Below are positions 51,278 through 61,259 of a DNA stretch of 64,000 nucleotides, piece by piece. The first letter of the stretch is position 1, and each line of letters opens with the position of its first letter. This DNA is from Pseudozobellia thermophila (GTDB lineage: Bacteria; Bacteroidota; Bacteroidia; Flavobacteriales; Flavobacteriaceae), in assembly GCF_900141855.1 (NCBI RefSeq), contig NZ_FQYU01000001.1, positions 1,151,402 through 1,215,401 of the forward strand. Direction: 5' to 3'. The notes below the pieces were generated by a model that had not been told where the DNA came from, made no database searches, and saw nothing but the letters and a program-made list of their open reading frames with translations. Both the position numbers and the translations under genes were made by a program.

Positions 51278-53770
51278 ATGGCCAAGAATTTAGTAATAGT
51301 AGAGTCCCCAGCAAAGGCGAAGACCATAGAGAAATTTTTAGGAAAGGATTATAAGGTGGAGTCCAGTTTCGGGCACATTGCCGATTTGCCTTCCAAAGAA
51401 CTAGGGGTAGATGTCGACAACGATTTTCAGCCCAAGTATATCGTTGATAGCGACAAAAAAGCCCTTGTGAAGAAACTACGGGACTTGGCCAACAAAGCGG
51501 AGACCATTTGGTTGGCGAGTGATGAAGACCGCGAGGGGGAAGCCATTTCCTGGCACTTGGCCGAGACCTTGAAACTCGATAAAAGCAAGACCAAGCGAAT
51601 AGTCTTTAACTCCATTACCAAAAATGCGATTCAAAAGGCTATTGAAAACCCAAGGGAAATAGATTATAACCTTGTCAATGCCCAACAGGCACGGCGGGTA
51701 CTTGACCGTTTGGTGGGATACGAACTTTCGCCCGTACTATGGAAGAAGATCAAGCCGGGCCTGTCGGCCGGTAGGGTGCAATCGGTAGCGGTAAGGCTGA
51801 TCGTGGAGCGCGAAAGGGAGATAGAGGCGTTTACCCCCGAGGCTTCCTTCAGGGTGTCCGCCGAATTCAAGACCTTGGATGGCAACGTTTTTTCCGCCAA
51901 ACTGAACAAAACCTTTTCCTCGAAACAAGAGGCCGAGGCATTTTTGAGAAGTAACATAGGAGCTGAGTTTTCGGTAGGCAGCTTGGATAAAAAGCCCGCC
52001 AAGAAATCCCCGGCGGCACCGTTTACGACCTCTACCTTGCAACAGGAGGCTTCCCGAAAACTTTACTTTTCGGTGGCACGGACCATGCAGGTGGCCCAGC
52101 GCTTGTACGAGGCGGGACTTATAACGTATATGAGGACCGATAGCGTCAACCTTTCAGGGGAGGCCATCAATGCGGCCAAGGAGGCCATCATAAACAATTA
52201 CGGGGAAAGATATAGCACCGTTCGTAACTTTAAGGGCAAGTCAAAGGGGGCCCAAGAGGCACACGAAGCTATTCGTCCGACCGATATAACCAACCAGTCC
52301 CCATCATTGGAGCGCGATCAAATGAAGCTGTACGAGCTTATTTGGAAACGCACCATCGCCTCACAGATGAGCGATGCCGAGTTGGAGCGGACCAATGTCA
52401 AGGTTGCCGCGAGTACCCATTCGGAACAGTTTACGGCCAACGGCGAGGTAATCAAGTTCGACGGTTTTCTCAAAGTGTATATGGAAGGGGTCGACGAAGA
52501 AGACCTTGCAGAGGAGCAAGAAGGAATGCTCCCGGCCATGAAAGTGGGCGAGGCATTGAAAAATAACTATATAACGGCCACTGAACGCTTTTCAAGGCCG
52601 CCGTACCGTTTTACGGAGGCCTCCTTGGTCAAGAAACTGGAAGAGTTGGGCATTGGCCGGCCTTCTACCTACGCTCCCACGATTTCTACGATCCAAAACA
52701 GGGGATACGTGGAAAAGGGTACCGTAGAGGGTACGCAACGCAATTATGTACAATTGCTTTTGGAAGCCGGGGAGGTGCAAGAGAAAAAACTTTCCGAAAT
52801 GGTCGGTTCCGATAAGGGAAAACTGGTGCCCACCGATATCGGTATGATCGTAAACGACTTCTTGGTAAGCCATTTTGCCAATATTTTGGACTACAACTTT
52901 ACGGCCAAGGTCGAGGAAGATTTTGATGAGATAGCCGAAGGAGATGAGGATTGGCAGAAGGTGATGAAGGACTTTTACAAGGATTTTCACCCCATGGTGC
53001 TCGATGTTCAGGAAAATGCCGACCGGGCCAGTGGCGAACGTATCTTGGGCGAAGACCCGGCGACGGGACGCCAAGTGTCCGTGCGCTTAGGGCGGTTCGG
53101 GCCGATGGTACAGATAGGTACGGTAGATGATGAGGAAAAACCCCGGTTCGCCAGCCTTTTGCCCAGCCAGTCCTTGAACACCATTACCTACGAAGAGGCC
53201 ATGGAACTCTTTAAACTTCCGAGAAAACTAGGGGTTTACGAAGGCGAGGAGGTTGAGGCGAACGTGGGAAGGTTCGGCCCCTATGTGCGTTTTGGCAAAA
53301 AATTCGTGTCCCTCGAAAAAGGGGAAAGTGCCTTCGAGGTCGATTTTGAACGTGCGGTCGAACTTATCAAGGAAAAACAAAAGGCCGATGCGCCCATCTA
53401 TGTTTATGAAGGCAAGGAGGTGACCAAGGGCACCGGTCGTTTCGGGCCCTTTATCAAATGGGACGGTATGTTCATCAACGTCAATAAAAAGTACGATTTT
53501 GACAACCTTTCGGAAGCCGATATCATCGAGCTCATCGAGGCGAAAAAGCAAAAGGAAATCGACAAGGTCGTGCAGAACTGGGAAGATGAAGGCATACGTA
53601 TCGAAAAGGCACGTTGGGGGCGGCACAATATCATCAAGGGCAAGACAAAGGTAGAATTGGCCAAAACCGTAGATGCGGCCAAGATGTCGTTGGAAGAGGC
53701 CAAGGCCTTAATTGAAAAAAAGGCACCAAAGAAAAAGGCCAAGGCCAAACCCAAGGCCAAGAAAAAATAG
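51278..53770 (+). CDS. topA: DNA topoisomerase I
   Basis: An 830-residue type IA topoisomerase that relaxes negative supercoils. It has the Toprim domain (L-V-I-V-E-S-P-A-K-A-K-T-I; later D-E-D-R-E-G-E), the catalytic Tyr284 in I-T-Y-M-R-T-D-S and the core region to about residue 590. The C-terminus has Toprim_C-type repeats (G-R-F-G-P-x-V/I at about 605, 670 and 725) instead of four-Cys zinc fingers, then a lysine/alanine/proline tail (K-K-A-P-K-K-K-A-K-A-K). It has its own promoter and terminator. Confidence 0.97.
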   Translation: MAKNLVIVESPAKAKTIEKFLGKDYKVESSFGHIADLPSKELGVDVDNDFQPKYIVDSDKKALVKKLRDLANKAETIWLASDEDREGEAISWHLAETLKLDKSKTKRIVFNSITKNAIQKAIENPREIDYNLVNAQQARRVLDRLVGYELSPVLWKKIKPGLSAGRVQSVAVRLIVEREREIEAFTPEASFRVSAEFKTLDGNVFSAKLNKTFSSKQEAEAFLRSNIGAEFSVGSLDKKPAKKSPAAPFTTSTLQQEASRKLYFSVARTMQVAQRLYEAGLITYMRTDSVNLSGEAINAAKEAIINNYGERYSTVRNFKGKSKGAQEAHEAIRPTDITNQSPSLERDQMKLYELIWKRTIASQMSDAELERTNVKVAASTHSEQFTANGEVIKFDGFLKVYMEGVDEEDLAEEQEGMLPAMKVGEALKNNYITATERFSRPPYRFTEASLVKKLEELGIGRPSTYAPTISTIQNRGYVEKGTVEGTQRNYVQLLLEAGEVQEKKLSEMVGSDKGKLVPTDIGMIVNDFLVSHFANILDYNFTAKVEEDFDEIAEGDEDWQKVMKDFYKDFHPMVLDVQENADRASGERILGEDPATGRQVSVRLGRFGPMVQIGTVDDEEKPRFASLLPSQSLNTITYEEAMELFKLPRKLGVYEGEEVEANVGRFGPYVRFGKKFVSLEKGESAFEVDFERAVELIKEKQKADAPIYVYEGKEVTKGTGRFGPFIKWDGMFINVNKKYDFDNLSEADIIELIEAKKQKEIDKVVQNWEDEGIRIEKARWGRHNIIKGKTKVELAKTVDAAKMSLEEAKALIEKKAPKKKAKAKPKAKKK

Positions 53771-53808: not shown

Positions 53809-53848
53809 AAAGACACCTTGGCCTGAAACACGGGCCAAGGTGTCTTTG
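53809..53848 (+). terminator. Terminator of topA
   Basis: A 13-bp stem (AGACACCTTGGCC/GGCCAAGGTGTCT) with a 9-nt loop, about 40 bases after the stop codon, followed by a T-rich stretch. Confidence 0.85.
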
Positions 53849-54010: not shown

Positions 54011-55168
54011 ATGGAATTAGATTTTTTGGTGCCCGTCGAAGATAAGGTATTGGCACACTGTGAGCTATTGCCGCAACAAGCCTTGGGCAAGCATTTGAGG
54101 ATTCATACCCAGCGGGACGGCCTGCCCGACCTGAAGGGGGTTGACATAGCCATTATAGGGGTGAACGAGTCGAGAAACGCCTTTGAGAAGAAACCCGAGA
54201 AACTGGATATATCGGGCATACGCATCCAGCTCTACAAACTGTTGATGGGCAACTGGAATTCAACCTTGGCCGATATTGGCGATATTGAGGAAGGGGCTAC
54301 GGTCGAAGACACCTATTTTGTGGTCAAGAATACCTTGGCCGCCCTGATCAAGGAAGGTATCGTGCCGGTGATAATCGGGGCCACACAAGACATTACCTAT
54401 CCGGCCTATCGCGCTTTCGACGGGATCAAGGACCTGGTCAACCTGGTGGCCGTAGACAGTCGTTTTGATTTTGGTATGGATGACGAATTGATTTCATCGC
54501 ACTCGTACATGAGCAAGATCATTACCGAAAAACCCAATAACCTTTATAACTTTTCCAATATCGGCTATCAGAGCTATTTTAATGCACAGGAGGAAATGGA
54601 CCTGATGGAGCGCTTGTTCTTCGATGCCTATCGGTTGGGGGATCTGGGTGCCGACATATCCTTGGCCGAGCCCGTTCTGCGAAATGCGCACATGGTAAGT
54701 ATGGATGCCCGGGCCGTAAGGGCCAGTGAAATAGGACTGCTCGATAACTTTTCGCCCAATGGCTTCACGGGAAGGGAGATCTGTGCCATTTCGAGATATG
54801 CCGGTTTCAGTGATAAGGTGATGGTCTTTGGGATCTATGAAATGGAGAATGCCATGCAATCGTCCCAGCTTGTTGCCCAGATAATTTGGTATTTCATCGA
54901 AGGATATAATTTTCGGATTACCGAATCGCCGCTGGAGGAAGCGGAGAACTTTACCAAGTACAATGTGCCCTGCGATACCGAACAACTGGTGTTTTACAAG
55001 AGCAACCTGACCGATAGGTGGTGGGTTGAGGTACCTTCTATTTTGTCTTCGCACACTAAAACGAATGCCGTTGCGTTATTACCATGCACAAAAACGGACT
55101 ATTTGCAAGCTTGCGACCAAAATATCCCAGAAAGATGGCTGAAGGCTTACAAAAAAGGGTTCAATTAA
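54011..55168 (+). CDS. Arginase-fold protein with lost metal ligands
   Basis: A 385-residue protein of the ureohydrolase (arginase/formimidoylglutamase) superfamily, normally metal-dependent hydrolases. All three family signatures are recognisable by shape, but the metal ligands have changed. Signature 1 reads I-G-A-T-Q-D with Gln126 where His is expected, signature 2 reads V-D-S-R-F-D with Arg151 for His, and signature 3 reads S-M-D-A-R-A with Arg234 for Asp. Only Asp149, Asp153 and Asp232 of the six expected ligands remain. It is therefore unlikely to be a working formimidoylglutamase, the usual automatic name. No hut genes are nearby; gldK starts 189 bp downstream. A structural or regulatory role in gliding or type IX secretion is an inference from position. 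Confidence 0.85.
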   Translation: MELDFLVPVEDKVLAHCELLPQQALGKHLRIHTQRDGLPDLKGVDIAIIGVNESRNAFEKKPEKLDISGIRIQLYKLLMGNWNSTLADIGDIEEGATVEDTYFVVKNTLAALIKEGIVPVIIGATQDITYPAYRAFDGIKDLVNLVAVDSRFDFGMDDELISSHSYMSKIITEKPNNLYNFSNIGYQSYFNAQEEMDLMERLFFDAYRLGDLGADISLAEPVLRNAHMVSMDARAVRASEIGLLDNFSPNGFTGREICAISRYAGFSDKVMVFGIYEMENAMQSSQLVAQIIWYFIEGYNFRITESPLEEAENFTKYNVPCDTEQLVFYKSNLTDRWWVEVPSILSSHTKTNAVALLPCTKTDYLQACDQNIPERWLKAYKKGFN

Positions 55169-55356: not shown

Positions 55357-56712
55357 ATGAAAAAGCTATTGTTATCATCTATAGCGTTTGTTTTTTTGCT
55401 CAGTAGTTGTGGGTCAAGAACAAAAGGAGAGCTAGTCGGGGCCCAAGGCAAAAAATGGTATCCGGAGAAACCCTATGGGATGGTGCTCATTCCAAGAGGT
55501 TCCTTTATAATGGGTAAGACCGAGGAGGACCAGGCTAAGATCATGAACGCACCCACAAAGACCGTTACGGTCAGATCGTTCTATATGGATGATACCGAAA
55601 TTACGAATAGCGAGTATCGCCAGTTCGTAGAATGGGTAAAAGACTCCATTACCAGGACCAGGTTGGCCATTTTGGCCGATGAGCTTGGCTTGGGCCCGGA
55701 AGATGGGGGTATTGGTGAATACGCCTTCAAGGATGCCGATACGACCAAACTTTCGGCCTATGACAAGTATATGCTGGATAATTATGCCGGTATGGGCGAG
55801 ACTGGTTATGAGGGAAGGGCGTTGAACAAAGACCAAGACCTGGTTTGGGATATTTCGGAGTATCCCGATGAGTATTATACCGAGGTGATGGATTCTTTGT
55901 ACATCCCGGAAGAGGAGTCGTACAATGGTCAGCGTACCATCGACGTCACCAAGTTGAAGTACAAATACAGTTGGATGGATATTGAAGCCGCGGCCCGCTC
56001 AAGGACGGGTAGCAGAAAGGATTTTATCCGTCACGAAGAATTGGAGATTTATCCCGACACCACGGTTTGGATCCGCGATTTCGAATATTCCTATAACGAG
56101 CCGATGCACAACGATTACTTTTGGCACGATGCCTATAGCGACTATCCTGTTGTAGGGGTGTCATGGGACCAGGCGAGGGCCTTCTGTAATTGGAGGACCA
56201 AGTTGAAGAACGACGACCAAAAGAGCCGGGGCAAACAGTTTGTCAACCAGTTCAGGTTGCCTACCGAGGCCGAATGGGAGTATGCCGCCAGAGGTGGTAT
56301 CGAAGGAGGGACCTATCCTTGGGGCGGTCCGTACGTAATAAGCGATACCGGTTGCTTTATGGCCAACTTTAAGCCCCAGAGGGGCGATTATGCCGCAGAT
56401 GCCGCCCTGTATACCGTAGAGGCGAAATCTTATGAGCCAAACGACTATAACCTGTACAATATGGCGGGTAACGTTTCTGAGTGGACCAACTCGAGCTATG
56501 ATCCGAACTCCTACGAATTCGTTTCGACCATGAACCCCAACGGTGGTGATGCCGCCAATGCCAGAAAGGTTATTCGCGGTGGTTCTTGGAAAGACGTTGC
56601 TTACTTCCTACAGGTAAGTACCCGCGATTACGAATACGCCGATTCGGCCCGTAGCTATATAGGGTTCAGGACCGTTCAGGATTATATGGGGGAAGAAGAT
56701 TCGACCCAATAA
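55357..56712 (+). CDS. gldK: Gliding/T9SS lipoprotein GldK
   Basis: A 451-residue lipoprotein of the type IX secretion and gliding machinery. The signal ends L-S-S-C (Cys18); the rest is a formylglycine-generating-enzyme/sulfatase-modifying fold (M-V-L-I-P-R-G-S-F-I-M-G, F-R-L-P-T-E-A-E-W-E-Y-A-A-R-G-G, G-N-V-S-E-W, R-G-G-S-W). GldK forms a periplasmic ring with GldN attached to the outer membrane. It starts the gldKLMN genes; 170 bp separate it from gldL. Confidence 0.96.
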   Translation: MKKLLLSSIAFVFLLSSCGSRTKGELVGAQGKKWYPEKPYGMVLIPRGSFIMGKTEEDQAKIMNAPTKTVTVRSFYMDDTEITNSEYRQFVEWVKDSITRTRLAILADELGLGPEDGGIGEYAFKDADTTKLSAYDKYMLDNYAGMGETGYEGRALNKDQDLVWDISEYPDEYYTEVMDSLYIPEEESYNGQRTIDVTKLKYKYSWMDIEAAARSRTGSRKDFIRHEELEIYPDTTVWIRDFEYSYNEPMHNDYFWHDAYSDYPVVGVSWDQARAFCNWRTKLKNDDQKSRGKQFVNQFRLPTEAEWEYAARGGIEGGTYPWGGPYVISDTGCFMANFKPQRGDYAADAALYTVEAKSYEPNDYNLYNMAGNVSEWTNSSYDPNSYEFVSTMNPNGGDAANARKVIRGGSWKDVAYFLQVSTRDYEYADSARSYIGFRTVQDYMGEEDSTQ

Positions 56713-56881: not shown

Positions 56882-57535
56882 ATGGCACAGTCAAAATCAA
56901 CAAAAAAACTGTTTAACATGGCCTACGGCCTTGGAGCATCGGTAGTAATCATTGGTGCATTGTTTAAAATCCTTCACTGGGAGCTTGGCCCCTTAAACGG
57001 TGGTGTCCTACTTGCCATCGGTCTTATTACCGAAGCGCTTATTTTTGCTATTAGTGCCTTTGAACCGGTAGACGACGAATACGATTGGTCTTTGGTATAC
57101 CCAGAGTTGGCCGGAGGTGAATCGCAACAAAGAAAGAGCAGTGAAGCTGCCGAGATCAAGGAAGCAGAGGCCTCATTGTCGGCTAAACTGGACAACTTGC
57201 TGAAAGAAGCCGGTGTCGATGCCAACTTGATGGAGAGCCTAGGTACCAGCATTAGGAATTTCGAAGGTGCCGCCAAAGGTATCGCCCCGACCGTCGATGC
57301 AATGGAATCTACAAGAAAATATTCCGAGGAAATGTTGCAGGCCGCCGCTCAAATGGAGTCTTTGAACAGCCTGTACAAAGTTCAATTGGAGAGTGCGAGC
57401 AAACAAGCCTCGGTCAACGAAGAAGTGGTGCAGAACGCCGCGGCACTTAAAGACCAAATGGAATCCTTGGCAACCAACCTTTCTTCCTTGAACGGAGTAT
57501 ACGGTGGTATGTTGAGCGCAATGACCAGAAACTAA
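56882..57535 (+). CDS. gldL: Gliding/T9SS motor protein GldL
   Basis: A 217-residue inner-membrane protein with two helices near the N-terminus (about 15-36 and 42-60), including a conserved G-A-L-F-K-I-L-H-W and a Glu in the second helix that fits proton-channel function. A cytoplasmic helical tail follows (residues 80-217). With GldM it forms the proton-motive-force-driven motor. It starts 170 bp after gldK; gldM follows 51 bp downstream. Confidence 0.96.
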   Translation: MAQSKSTKKLFNMAYGLGASVVIIGALFKILHWELGPLNGGVLLAIGLITEALIFAISAFEPVDDEYDWSLVYPELAGGESQQRKSSEAAEIKEAEASLSAKLDNLLKEAGVDANLMESLGTSIRNFEGAAKGIAPTVDAMESTRKYSEEMLQAAAQMESLNSLYKVQLESASKQASVNEEVVQNAAALKDQMESLATNLSSLNGVYGGMLSAMTRN

Positions 57536-57586: not shown

Positions 57587-59146
57587 ATGGCAGGAGGAAA
57601 ACAAACACCACGTCAGAAGATGATCAACCTAATGTATCTGGTGTTCATCGCAATGTTGGCGTTAAACATGAGTAAGGAAGTACTTTCGGCTTTCGGTATT
57701 ATGAACGAAAGACTAGAGGCTTCCAACGCCAAAACAATAGAAAGTAACGAAGCCTACTTGGCTAATTTGGAAACCAAGGCATCGGAAGATGCCGCCAAGT
57801 ATAAGAAGTTATACGAAGACGCCCAGAAGATCAAGGCTATGTCCAAAGAGTTTTACGATTATTTGGACGGTCTTAAGACCGAGATGATGGAAGGCGTCGA
57901 AGATCCCAAGGATTATATGGTAATGGACAAGTCCGATTACCTAGACCAAAAGTTCTTCCAAGGAGATGGCCTTTCAGAAGGTGGAAAAGAGTTCTTGAAG
58001 CGCATCCACGATTACCGCGACCAGGTTTCGGCCATGGTGCCCAAAGGAATCAAGTCTTCGGTAGAAGCTAGGTTCGAAACCGGTGACGAGAACGGAAAAG
58101 TGGAAACGCGCGACGGTTCCAAGGTCGATTGGATCAAATATCACTACGAAGGATTCCCTCAAGTGGCTTCTTTGGCTAAATTGACTGCGCTGCAAGCCGA
58201 TATAAAGGCTACCGAAGAGTCTGCCTTGAAGGCTATGCTCGAAGGTGAGTTGAGCGATCAGGTTTCCTTGAAGAACTTCCAGACCTCTTTGTTCGGTAGT
58301 AAGTCCGCTTACTACAGTGGAGAAAAATACGATGGTAAGATCATTATCAGCAAAACGGACAACAGCTCCAAGCCTGTAAGGGCCGAGTTGACCTTGGACG
58401 GACGTAAACTTACCGAAGGAACCGATTATAGGTTGGAAGAAGGTGGGGTCAAAATGTTGATCAGCGCCGGTTCTCCAGGAGACCATGTTGTAAAGGGAAA
58501 ACTTTTCTTCCAACAAGATGGGGAAGAGATCGAAGTGCCTGTGAACAATACCTTTGCTACCATCAGCAAGCCTAATGCCGCCTTGATCGCCGCCGACAAG
58601 ATGAACGTTGTCTATAGGGGCGTTGCCAACCCGATGTCCATCTCTATTCCGGGTATACCCAACAACAAGGTAAAAGCTTCGGCTCCAGGTCTTAAGTCCG
58701 TTGGAGGCAGTAAGTACGTAATGAACCCAGGTAAGGGTAGAACGGTTACCATTACCGCTTCAGGTACATTGCCTGATGGCCAAACGGTTTCGTCTAAGTC
58801 CGAATTCAGGATCAAGGATATTCCAAGGCCTGCAGGTACCGTAAGCAAGCAAGATGGTACGGTTAAGTTGCCAAGGGCCAACATGGAGATAGCTACTATC
58901 GGAGCTATGTTGGAAGACTTTGACTTTGATCTGAACCTCGCGGTTAGCGGATTTAAGTTCAAGGTGCCCGGCCAGCCTACCGTAAGTGTAAAAGGCAACA
59001 AGTTGAACGGTATGGCCAAAACAGCCTTGAAAAGGGCTAAAAGGGGAGATGTGGTTCAGATATTCGATATCGAGGCCTACATCACCAATAACAAGAGTTA
59101 CAAGTTGAAAAAAGTATCTCCTGTAGTCGTGGAGATCACAAACTAA
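57587..59146 (+). CDS. gldM: Gliding/T9SS motor protein GldM
   Basis: A 519-residue protein. One N-terminal membrane helix (about 15-34, M-I-N-L-M-Y-L-V-F-I-A-M-L-A-L-N-M) sits inside GldL; a helical part (about 40-220) and a series of beta-sandwich domains extend across the periplasm to the GldKN ring. It transmits motor torque. A hairpin lies between its stop and gldN. Confidence 0.97.
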   Translation: MAGGKQTPRQKMINLMYLVFIAMLALNMSKEVLSAFGIMNERLEASNAKTIESNEAYLANLETKASEDAAKYKKLYEDAQKIKAMSKEFYDYLDGLKTEMMEGVEDPKDYMVMDKSDYLDQKFFQGDGLSEGGKEFLKRIHDYRDQVSAMVPKGIKSSVEARFETGDENGKVETRDGSKVDWIKYHYEGFPQVASLAKLTALQADIKATEESALKAMLEGELSDQVSLKNFQTSLFGSKSAYYSGEKYDGKIIISKTDNSSKPVRAELTLDGRKLTEGTDYRLEEGGVKMLISAGSPGDHVVKGKLFFQQDGEEIEVPVNNTFATISKPNAALIAADKMNVVYRGVANPMSISIPGIPNNKVKASAPGLKSVGGSKYVMNPGKGRTVTITASGTLPDGQTVSSKSEFRIKDIPRPAGTVSKQDGTVKLPRANMEIATIGAMLEDFDFDLNLAVSGFKFKVPGQPTVSVKGNKLNGMAKTALKRAKRGDVVQIFDIEAYITNNKSYKLKKVSPVVVEITN

Positions 59147-59160
59147 TATTAAGTGAAAAA

Positions 59161-59183
59161 CCGGGCAGCCATTGGTTGCCCGG
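59161..59183 (+). promoter_or_regulatory. Hairpin between gldM and gldN
   Basis: A 10-bp GC-rich stem (CCGGGCAGCC with GGTTGCCCGG, one G-T pair, loop of 3) directly precedes gldN, followed by TAATTTT. The T tract is weak, so it is more likely an attenuator, RNA-processing site or mRNA stabiliser than a full terminator. Confidence 0.55.
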
Positions 59184-59203
59184 TAATTTTAAAATTGACA
59201 AAC

Positions 59204-60106
59204 ATGAATTGGAAGAATGTTTTAGTAATCGGAGCAGTAACTTTGTTACCTGTTTCCATGATGGCCCAGGCGAACATCCTAAACGCCAAAAAGCCGGAGG
59301 AAATCGGAATAAAGACCGAGGCCCAGAAGGCTTTGGACAACGATGCACCCTTGGAATACGGTTATGTCGACGATCGTGACATACTTTGGTCCAAGACGGT
59401 TTGGGAGGTCATCGACCTTGATGAAAGGGTGAATTTCCCTTTGTATTATCCGACCGACACCGTTGATATAGGTAGCGACAGAAGATCCCTGTACGATGTG
59501 TTGTTAAGGAGCATTAAAAATGGTGAGCTCGAAGACGTCTATGCCGATTCGTACTTTACCGATAAGCGAAAGTTTTCCGACCTTGAGGCTACTTTGCAAA
59601 GGGTCGATACCACCGATTATGGATACGAACAGATCAATGCCGGTGAAGAACTTTCTCCCGAGTACGTCATGAAAAGAAGCATTACGGCCGCCGATATCGA
59701 AGAATACCGTATCAAAGGCATGTGGTACTTCGACAAGCGCCAAGGAGAATTGAAGTACCGTCTTTTGGGTATAGCGCCCGTGGCTCCGGATGTCAACTTT
59801 ATAGACGATGAGTCCATGGATCCCGCAGATGCCAAGGTGGAGCTGTTCTGGGTATGGTACCCGGATGCCAGAAAGATCTTGCACGAGGCCAAGGTGTTCA
59901 ACCAAAGAAACTCGGCCCAGCCCATTTCCTTTGATATGTTGTTGAACGCAAGAAGGTTCAATGGGGTCATCTATAGGGAAGACAACGTACACGGCGACCG
60001 CAAGGTCAACGACTATATTCCCAACAATGCGTTGTTCCAATTGTTGGAGGCCAAAAGGATCCAAGAGACCATCCGCGACCGCGAACAAGACATGTGGGCT
60101 TATTAG
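59204..60106 (+). CDS. gldN: Gliding/T9SS protein GldN
   Basis: A 300-residue exported protein with a signal peptide (about 1-20, ending M-M-A-Q). The open frame extends back to 59153, but the ATG at 59204 gives a normal signal. Residues about 50-290 carry the GldN/PorN fold (L-W-S-K-T-V-W-E-V-I-D-L-D-E-R, R-I-K-G-M-W-Y-F-D). It joins GldK in the periplasmic ring. It is the last gene of the cluster and is followed by a strong terminator. Confidence 0.96.
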   Translation: MNWKNVLVIGAVTLLPVSMMAQANILNAKKPEEIGIKTEAQKALDNDAPLEYGYVDDRDILWSKTVWEVIDLDERVNFPLYYPTDTVDIGSDRRSLYDVLLRSIKNGELEDVYADSYFTDKRKFSDLEATLQRVDTTDYGYEQINAGEELSPEYVMKRSITAADIEEYRIKGMWYFDKRQGELKYRLLGIAPVAPDVNFIDDESMDPADAKVELFWVWYPDARKILHEAKVFNQRNSAQPISFDMLLNARRFNGVIYREDNVHGDRKVNDYIPNNALFQLLEAKRIQETIRDREQDMWAY

Positions 60107-60135
60107 GCCTAAAAAATATTCCAATTCAATAATAC

Positions 60136-60173
60136 AGGGCGCCCCGACCATTTGGTCGGGGCGCCCTTTTTCG
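60136..60173 (+). terminator. Strong terminator of gldKLMN
   Basis: A stem of about 14 bp (GGGCGCCCCGACCA and its complement) with a tiny loop followed by five T, 30 bases after gldN. Its strength fits the end of a highly expressed operon. Confidence 0.92.
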
Positions 60174-60208
60174 TTTCCATCCCGGTACCAAAAGAGGTTT
60201 ACATTGGT

Positions 60209-60216
60209 TACCTTTG
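60209..60216 (+). promoter_or_regulatory. -7 box before the FAD oxidoreductase
   Basis: TACCTTTG matches TAnnTTTG and ends five bases before the ATG at 60222, suggesting a leaderless message. No -33 TTTG was found. Confidence 0.5.
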
Positions 60217-60221
60217 CCCCC

Positions 60222-61259
60222 ATGTTGGATTATTTGATCGTAGGGCTTGGGCTGGCCGGCATTTCCTTTGCCGAGCGGCTCGATGGCGCCGATAAGACGT
60301 TTAAGGTGGTTAGCGACCGCTCACAAACCTCTTCAAGGGTTGCGGGCGGCTTGTACAATCCGGTAATTTTAAAACGCTTTACCTTGGCCTGGAAGGCCGA
60401 TGTGCAGTTGCAAGGGGCCAAGCCCTTCTATGCGGCCTTGGAGGCAAAGCTGGGGAGCTTGGACCACCCCTTTCCGGTCTATCGTCGCCTTAGTTCCATC
60501 GAAGAGCAGAACATGTGGTTCGAGGCATCCGATAAAATGGGACTGGGCAAGTTTCTATCGCCTACAATTCATCCGAATACCCATTCGAATATAGATGCCC
60601 CATTGGGCTTCGGGGAAGTGCTCCATACCGGACGCATCGATACCAATAAACTGGTCGATGGCTATACCGATCGGCTTGCTGAAAACGATAGGCTCCTCGC
60701 CGAAACCTTTGATTATGCCAAATTGCATATTAACGAGAGGTTTGTGGAGTACAAGGGTATCAGGGCAGGTAAAATTGTTTTTGCCGAAGGCTTCGGTATG
60801 AAGGGGAATCCCTTTTTTAACTACCTACCGCTCAATGGAAGCAAGGGCGAATACCTAGTGGTCAAGGCCGTGGACCTGAAAATCGATTTCGCCCTCAAAT
60901 CATCGGTCTTCGTTATCCCTTTGGGAAACGACCTCTATCAGGTCGGAGCCAACTACGAATGGAGGGATAAGACGAACGAGCCTACGCAAAGGACAAAGGA
61001 AGCCTTAGAGCAAAAGCTGGGCGCCTTGATATCGTGCGATTATGAGGTGGTGGGACAGCTGGCGGGGGTCAGGCCTACGGTAAGCGATAGAAGGCCCTTG
61101 GTAGGCAGGCATCCCGAACATAAAAACCTTTATGTACTCAACGGCTTCGGTTCGCGAGGGGTGCTGATCGCCCCTTATGCTTCAAGGCAGCTCCTTGATT
61201 TTATTGAGGAGGGTATCGCCCTCGATGCCGAAATGGACATTCGCCGTTTTGACAACTAG
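60222..61259 (+). CDS. FAD-dependent oxidoreductase (DAO family)
   Basis: 345 residues from the ATG at 60222; the open frame begins inside gldN at 59961, but only from 60222 does it read as a flavoprotein (Y-L-I-V-G-L-G-L-A-G-I-S-F-A). The FAD-binding Rossmann fold is at the start and a D-amino-acid-oxidase-type domain follows, with R-P-T-V-S-D-R-R-P-L-V-G and G-F-G-S-R-G near the C-terminus. The substrate is probably an amine or amino acid; none can be named. It runs to four bases from the convergent DUF983 gene. Confidence 0.88.
   Translation: MLDYLIVGLGLAGISFAERLDGADKTFKVVSDRSQTSSRVAGGLYNPVILKRFTLAWKADVQLQGAKPFYAALEAKLGSLDHPFPVYRRLSSIEEQNMWFEASDKMGLGKFLSPTIHPNTHSNIDAPLGFGEVLHTGRIDTNKLVDGYTDRLAENDRLLAETFDYAKLHINERFVEYKGIRAGKIVFAEGFGMKGNPFFNYLPLNGSKGEYLVVKAVDLKIDFALKSSVFVIPLGNDLYQVGANYEWRDKTNEPTQRTKEALEQKLGALISCDYEVVGQLAGVRPTVSDRRPLVGRHPEHKNLYVLNGFGSRGVLIAPYASRQLLDFIEEGIALDAEMDIRRFDN

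Follow-up and report, generated by a model that had tools for sequence, protein, structure and literature searches.

The window, by which we mean the whole 64,000-nucleotide stretch of DNA analysed here, carries on its forward strand an ORF at 54011..55168 encoding a protein of 385 aa, a predicted pseudo-ureohydrolase (hereafter PS) recognised from its reading frame, a Pfam match and its predicted structure. Upstream, on the same strand, lies the ORF at 51278..53770, which we take from its sequence to be topA, encoding DNA topoisomerase I; this gene is also the immediate upstream neighbour in most relatives. Family models, run at the locus on PS and on gldK to gldN, identified gldK (55357..56712), gldL (56882..57535), gldM (57587..59146) and gldN (59153..60106), all on the forward strand, confirming that PS directly precedes gldKLMN, from which it is separated by 188 bp. 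The gap between topA and PS measures 240 bp, far more than in most relatives (109 and 111 bp in two Zobellia relatives), and contains a terminator-like hairpin on the forward strand with a 17-bp stem and a T-rich tail (53809..53847, MFE z of -5.7). PS may have its own promoter in this genome; a consensus search of the window for Bacteroidota-type promoters gave 3 matches, where 2.1 would be expected, and none of them lies near PS. Among the ORFs at 47–62 kb, no histidine-catabolism neighbours were recognised by eye, as the original prediction had stated. The protein is acidic (pI 4.8), shows no signal peptide on inspection by eye and is probably cytosolic.

PS matches the Pfam Arginase family PF00491 with an E value of 5.1e-7 and 29.9 bits, above the gathering cut-off of 22. 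In the alignment, its first signature reads GATQDIT, with Gln126 (codon at 54386..54388) at the place of the canonical His of site A. The second reads DSRFD, in which Arg151 (54461..54463) replaces the canonical His of site B, while the bridging ligand Asp149 (54455..54457) and Asp153 of site A (54467..54469) are retained. The third reads SMDAR, with Arg234 (54710..54712) replacing the canonical Asp of site B next to the retained bridging Asp232 (54704..54706); all six codons lie on the forward strand. The assignment to sites A and B follows arginase nomenclature, and we take positions 151 and 234 to be the ligands belonging to metal B alone. The window's protein, therefore, retains three of the six two-metal ligands that mark the PF00491 superfamily, and the replacements fall at exactly the residues originally named. 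Chance can be excluded because all 13 aligned canonical relatives retain His151 and Asp234. That these residue numbers lie near those of the Escherichia coli agmatinase ligands (H126, D149, H151, D153, D230 and D232, according to PMC8049259) is a coincidence. An AlphaFold2 model, computed from an input alignment of 52 sequences including the window's own (pLDDT 80.8, pTM 0.85), has the ureohydrolase alpha/beta fold, so that the predicted preservation of the fold holds. VIA-align placed formiminoglutamases at the top (Z 29.6 over 267 residues at 2.7 A, with 19% identity to 4myn), whereas Foldseek and phmmer gave the agmatine ureohydrolase 3pzl as the best match. The window's genome encodes a second arginase-family member, one agmatinase with all six ligands.

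A PS match was found in 35 out of 40 related genomes, and the 30 relatives fetched, the window's own included, are 39–100% identical and mostly about 385 aa long. The family-wide survey comprised 222 rows of at least 150 bits from named and unnamed relatives; it leaves out the low scorers L178, L179, L181 and L232, the 13 canonical rows and the repeat loci L002, L119 and L120, many of its rows are close relatives, and some loci occur twice (for example, L199–L202 are L028, L030, L032 and L031). None of the 222 rows has all six ligands: His151 is present in 5 and Asp234 in 6, never both together, while Asp149, Asp153 and Asp232 are present in 211, 198 and 210, respectively; 179 rows have Gln and 26 have His at position 126. 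The 105 representatives under 70% identity gave a similar picture, with His151 in 3, Asp234 in 2, Asp149 in 99, Asp153 in 88, Asp232 in 97, and Gln (70) or His (22) at position 126; position 151 is Arg or Lys in 68 of them. The His151 rows L180 and L231 and the Asp234 rows L172–L176 and L228 may be misaligned. Three loci (L131, L142 and L146) have His at 151, each without Asp234. Both site-B ligands are present in all 13 canonical controls, eight of which have all six ligands; in the remaining ones, Asn replaces the first His (four) or stands at 153 (one). Ten weak phylum-wide matches outside the class-level groups (L183–L192) are likewise canonical and retain the site-B ligands. Local decay in the window's genome was considered and ruled out, as the replacement is found in the whole PS family. 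As originally predicted, no homologue beside gldK has all six ligands (0/177); the same is true away from gldK (0/42) and where too little sequence is available (0/3). Ligand loss is thus equal with and without gldK, and the suggested tie between the two falls away.

We built a quick tree of the 105 representatives and the 13 canonical proteins with the ligand columns blanked; it is unrooted and has several long branches. PS and canonical proteins lie on opposite sides of one branch (SH-aLRT 100). Changes counted on this tree numbered 4 and 3 for the two site-B ligands, at least 9 for the Asp triad (149, 153 and 232) and at least 17 for His versus other residues at position 126. On the simplest reading, site B would have disappeared a single time, early in the PS family, apart from occasional apparent reversions of one residue, and the site-A carboxylates would mostly have stayed. 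The first ligand is His in 16 out of 20 loci of groups f18, f22 and f23, and Gln126 may, therefore, be a later change. Loss of one triad residue tends to go with loss of another (Fisher P of 3e-6, 5e-7 and 0.005, accepting Asn at position 153 and treating rows as independent). Among the low scorers, L178, L179 and L181 are highly divergent members that align mainly in their C-terminal half; their neighbours are murF and the genes for an OmpA-domain protein and for a GldK-like protein.

The original prediction also held PS to be under selection, and the substitution rates bear this out. In the 37 out of 48 pairs with finite dS, dN/dS had a median of 0.035 and reached at most 0.078, values that are rough because dS exceeds 1 in many pairs but that indicate strong purifying selection. 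A set of ten nearly invariant residues (R208, E220, R224, C258, W293, F328, W337, W338, C359 and Y364), each present in 101–105 of the 105 representatives, is specific to PS, being rare or missing in canonical rows (E220 occurs in 3/13). We compared this set with the Asp triad in 14 triad-eroded rows, which were hand-picked, include five from one group and do not cover L234 and L235, where the change is confined to 149 or to 149 and 153. Only 7 out of 42 Asp residues remain in these rows, yet the family-specific set is kept at 126 out of 140 positions, compared with 943 out of 950 in the other 95 representatives. Judging from these alignments, selection on PS seems to act not mainly at the old metal site. 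Five of the ten residues (F328, W337, W338, C359 and Y364) fall in a C-terminal extension, residues 304–385 (54920..55165, forward strand), which has no alignment to canonical ureohydrolases and lies outside the structural matches. Modelled alone (pLDDT 72.6), the extension gave no match at E≤0.001 in a Foldseek search of the PDB; a new fold was considered and is not established, the model being of middling quality and Foldseek the only search.

The automatic name formimidoylglutamase, as the original prediction gave it, is indeed misleading. PS scores 32.9 bits against the NCBI HutG model TIGR01227 and misses its cut-off of 229.15, as three other members also do (35.5–90.6 bits). In our neighbourhood map, canonical relatives lie beside a hutI-cluster gene (cluster c13, one member of which is named) in 8 loci, compared with none of the PS loci, and in the window PS is flanked by topA and gldK, not by the histidine-catabolism genes that go with HutG. 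PS has the same core fold as the formiminoglutamases (4mxr and 4myn from Trypanosoma cruzi, 3m1r from Bacillus subtilis), the GGxxD, DSxxD and S-x-D motifs align, and Gln187 of PS is common to 9 of the 13 canonical rows; it differs in lacking both site-B ligands, in its C-terminal extension of about 80 residues and in its neighbours. The T. cruzi enzyme has Asn at PS position 126 in the alignment, and the title of 4mxr states two Mn.

PS has the features of an arginase-fold pseudoenzyme, namely loss of two-metal ligands in a fold that is under selection, and other proteins of this kind offer comparisons. TbARG, the arginase-like protein of Trypanosoma brucei, is reported to have an arginase fold without the two-metal cluster, and it shares with PS an Arg at its residue 151, since the mutant 4rhm includes R151H in its title; it differs in being eukaryotic and, according to the same title, in lacking Asp at 149, 153 and 226, which PS mostly keeps. 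MetCb of metformin hydrolase is also an arginase-family protein with changed ligands: according to PMC11271267, it has lost five of the six, is metal-free, has a binding role and is required for activity, and the MetCa and MetCb genes are paired. PS, in contrast, keeps the site-A Asp residues and has no active partner gene alongside that we could see. Among arginase-fold proteins without a two-metal site, the PS family stands out by its breadth, its age and the loss of site B only. Histone deacetylases have the same fold and keep a single-metal site B (Asp, His, Asp), whereas PS has lost the very site that they keep; a family without site B that retains the site-A carboxylates thus forms a natural contrast to them. 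We found no publication on the PS family in the literature searched, whose scope excludes most subscription journals.

Among 80 named relatives, topA lies upstream and gldK downstream of PS in 76, and three of the four exceptions (L066, L082 and L099) are on or near contig ends. In 40 further, hand-chosen loci of the class, topA is directly upstream in 36, and the order topA, PS, porP, gldK is found in 29, the gene between PS and gldK being porP/sprF in these 29. An order-level sample of 89 genomes contained 68 PS matches, of which 63 were used after leaving out five weaker ones (G775, among the 63, is doubtful): in 36 of these, gldK follows PS on the same strand at a distance of 1.7–3.2 kb, which leaves room for one gene; 26 have it on a different contig and one has it at another position. 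Of 395 class genomes, 73 have both genes among the matches listed; gldK is adjacent in 60 of these, including 48 with the same distance and room for one gene and 11 in which it is directly next to PS. Different contigs (26/63 and 9/73) were scored as non-adjacent. The adjacency of PS and gldK is real and spans many family codes. Here, we take Fjoh_1853 to be gldK and Fjoh_1852 its neighbour.

Spacing separates the two sides of PS. We scored topA within 600 nt and gldK or porP within 900 nt over loci L033–L242, which contain some species twice. The gap between topA and PS is at most 30 nt in 117 out of 153 cases and above 100 in 10, whereas that between PS and gldK or porP is never 30 nt or less (0/148) and exceeds 100 in 140. 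Since the spacing is one-sided, topA and PS probably form one unit, with a separate unit beginning after PS. In this respect PS differs from the gldKLMN and porP/sprF operon, with which it shares order and strand over many family codes, in being spaced apart from it and in a presence that does not strictly follow SprA. The arrangement is broken in a number of rows, of which 6 have topA without gldK and 36 have neither; gldK without topA was scored in 9, a count that is inflated, as topA is upstream in L207, L208 and L228. In none of the 27 loci from groups f17, f18, f22 and f23 does topA or gldK lie within about 6 kb of PS, so the link between PS and topA is not universal. In L236, topA shows up as a pair of reading frames (252 and 603 aa) immediately before PS, through either a sequencing error or a split gene.

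The distribution of PS was compared with that of type IX secretion system (T9SS) genes in 395 genomes of the sampled class, presumably Bacteroidia. A PS match (E value of 0.001 or better) was obtained in 368 and GldK over cut-off in 367; of the 28 genomes without GldK over cut-off, 27 are identified in our table. Among the 339 near-complete genomes (≥90% complete, ≤5% contaminated), PS was found in 320, four of them only at 1e-10 to 1e-20 (G485, G514, G516 and G714). The 19 near-complete genomes without PS comprise 12 with strong GldK (E below 1e-101), all of which have GldL and SprA over cut-offs, and 7 in which GldK does not reach its cut-off; among these 7, SprA is present in G431 and G543, and GldL in G431. 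Conversely, at least six PS-bearing near-complete genomes have no GldK over cut-off: G564, G649, G695 and G766 have SprA, and assembly gaps are, therefore, likely in these four, while G396 and G483 have neither GldL nor SprA. Counted by eye and with genomes treated as independent, GldK is below cut-off in 7 out of 19 genomes without PS compared with at least 6 out of 320 with it, and the presence of PS and that of GldK are associated across the class. In a phylum-wide sample, GldK was over cut-off in 93 out of 395 genomes, at least four of which have no PS match (G227, G286, G384 and G408).

In the genus of G396 (g56, group f17), PS is full-length in 30 out of 30 genomes, with open frames of 396–447 aa without stops, while SprA was matched in 9 of the 30 (9 of the 29 good genomes), leaving 21 without it. 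PS thus survives where the translocon gene was not found, and in the 12 PS-less genomes either T9SS genes persist without PS or PS is too divergent for the model. PS shares a gene cluster with T9SS genes, then, and its presence does not strictly follow theirs; adjacency to gldKLMN is best read as old gene order and gives no sign of a secretion function. Two genomes are unusual in their motor-ring genes: G041, of the same genus g56, has GldK (380 bits) and GldL (195 bits) with SprA not found, and in G431 a GldK-like stretch (C1:2263430-2263999, 284 bits) forms part of a 2,885-aa open frame that may be a fusion. GldL length was tried as a trace of a lost PS partner and rejected, as the ranges overlap (211–360 aa with PS, 199–364 aa without).

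Our preferred reading, to which we give a probability of about 0.66, is that PS is ancient, is part of a topA-linked unit and probably carries out no hydrolysis, being conserved for its family-specific residues and C-terminal extension. The family would descend, most likely once, from a formiminoglutamase-like ureohydrolase, a parentage made uncertain by the first rank of 3pzl in Foldseek and phmmer. Without site-B ligands, hydrolysis by the two-metal route of arginase and HutG is not to be expected. It would have been given up when both ligands exclusive to site B disappeared close to the base of the family, with Arg or Lys often taking position 151, and PS is probably not catalytic. In many lineages, PS would be made from the topA-linked unit. 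Its conserved working part would be the family-specific set and the extension, less so the old metal site. The remodelled core and the extension would most likely give PS a binding or scaffolding role in some housekeeping process, with topoisomerase I as the first candidate partner. The sequence evidence supports calling it a pseudo-ureohydrolase rather than a formimidoylglutamase. The latter name is unfit because half of the metal ligands are lost, and PS is kept where a key secretion gene was not found, despite its gld neighbours.

The main rival reading, which we nonetheless hold to be rather unlikely, takes PS as a one-metal enzyme or metal sensor in which site A (Gln/His126, Asp149, Asp153 and Asp232) binds a single ion for a different chemistry. 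A one-metal site may be in use, since the triad is complete in 87 of the 105 representatives, a degree of retention that an inactive site would not require; 96 have Gln, His or Asn at position 126, Asn also occurring there in the two-Mn T. cruzi enzyme, and the joint disappearance of triad residues points the same way. Against this, the triad was lost repeatedly on the tree while the family-specific residues mostly stayed, and Arg or Lys at 151 could offset the charge of the triad carboxylates in place of a metal. The original prediction, in contrast, saw in PS a pseudoenzyme component or regulator of gliding and T9SS, which would act from the cytosol on the GldKLMN motor-ring complex. The first half of that proposal stands, given that no row has six ligands and that selection is strongly purifying, but the T9SS-specific half, although favoured by gldK lying downstream in 36/63 and 48/73 genomes, by the lower frequency of GldK in genomes without PS and by the phylum sample, where at least four of the 93 genomes with GldK have no PS match, is improbable in our view. 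The tight neighbour of PS is topA, not gldK or porP; PS is kept in 21 genomes of one genus without a SprA match, two genomes with PS (G396 and G483) also have neither GldK nor GldL over cut-off, 12 near-complete genomes have strong GldK, GldL and SprA and no PS, and G431 and G543 have SprA without it.

Less probable still is that PS joins an active ureohydrolase in a mixed oligomer without being catalytic itself, as MetCb does with MetCa. MetCb, metal-free and needed for activity according to PMC11271267, is a precedent, and the agmatinase of the window's genome could be such a partner. MetCa and MetCb are paired, yet the mapped loci, in which many neighbours are unnamed, showed no recognisable ureohydrolase gene next to PS, and PS is the sole match in 5 out of 30 genomes of one genus, although the model is weak on canonical members. 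We give almost no credence to the idea that PS is a working formimidoylglutamase with unusual ligands: formiminoglutamases are its nearest structures in VIA-align and it has the Gln187 of most canonical rows, but it falls far short of the TIGR01227 cut-off, the site-B ligands are missing nearly throughout the family and hutI-cluster neighbours occur only at canonical relatives.

As to what the non-hydrolytic protein of our preferred reading might do beside topA, PS could be a class-wide, near-core dedicated partner or regulator of DNA topoisomerase I, a suggestion we regard as doubtful. In at least two orders PS lies tightly against topA, and the window's TopA ends in a lysine-rich tail, PS itself being acidic. 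The pocket of PS, one-metal or metal-free, may in that case sense a small ligand and link DNA supercoiling to metabolism. Our confidence in co-production with TopA as a lead to the partner is low because groups f17, f18, f22 and f23 carry PS away from topA. The match in 320 out of 339 near-complete genomes points to a near-core function in the class. Treating PS as a single old family outside the canonical enzymes would prevent erroneous metabolic inference, and the locus illustrates how a conserved adjacency to gldK can mislead when spacing and retention without SprA point elsewhere.

A second terminator-like element is found just past gldN, where a 14-bp perfect inverted repeat is followed by a T-rich tail on the forward strand (60136-60167). 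It falls within the beginning of a long open frame (59961-61259) that in reality probably starts at a later position.
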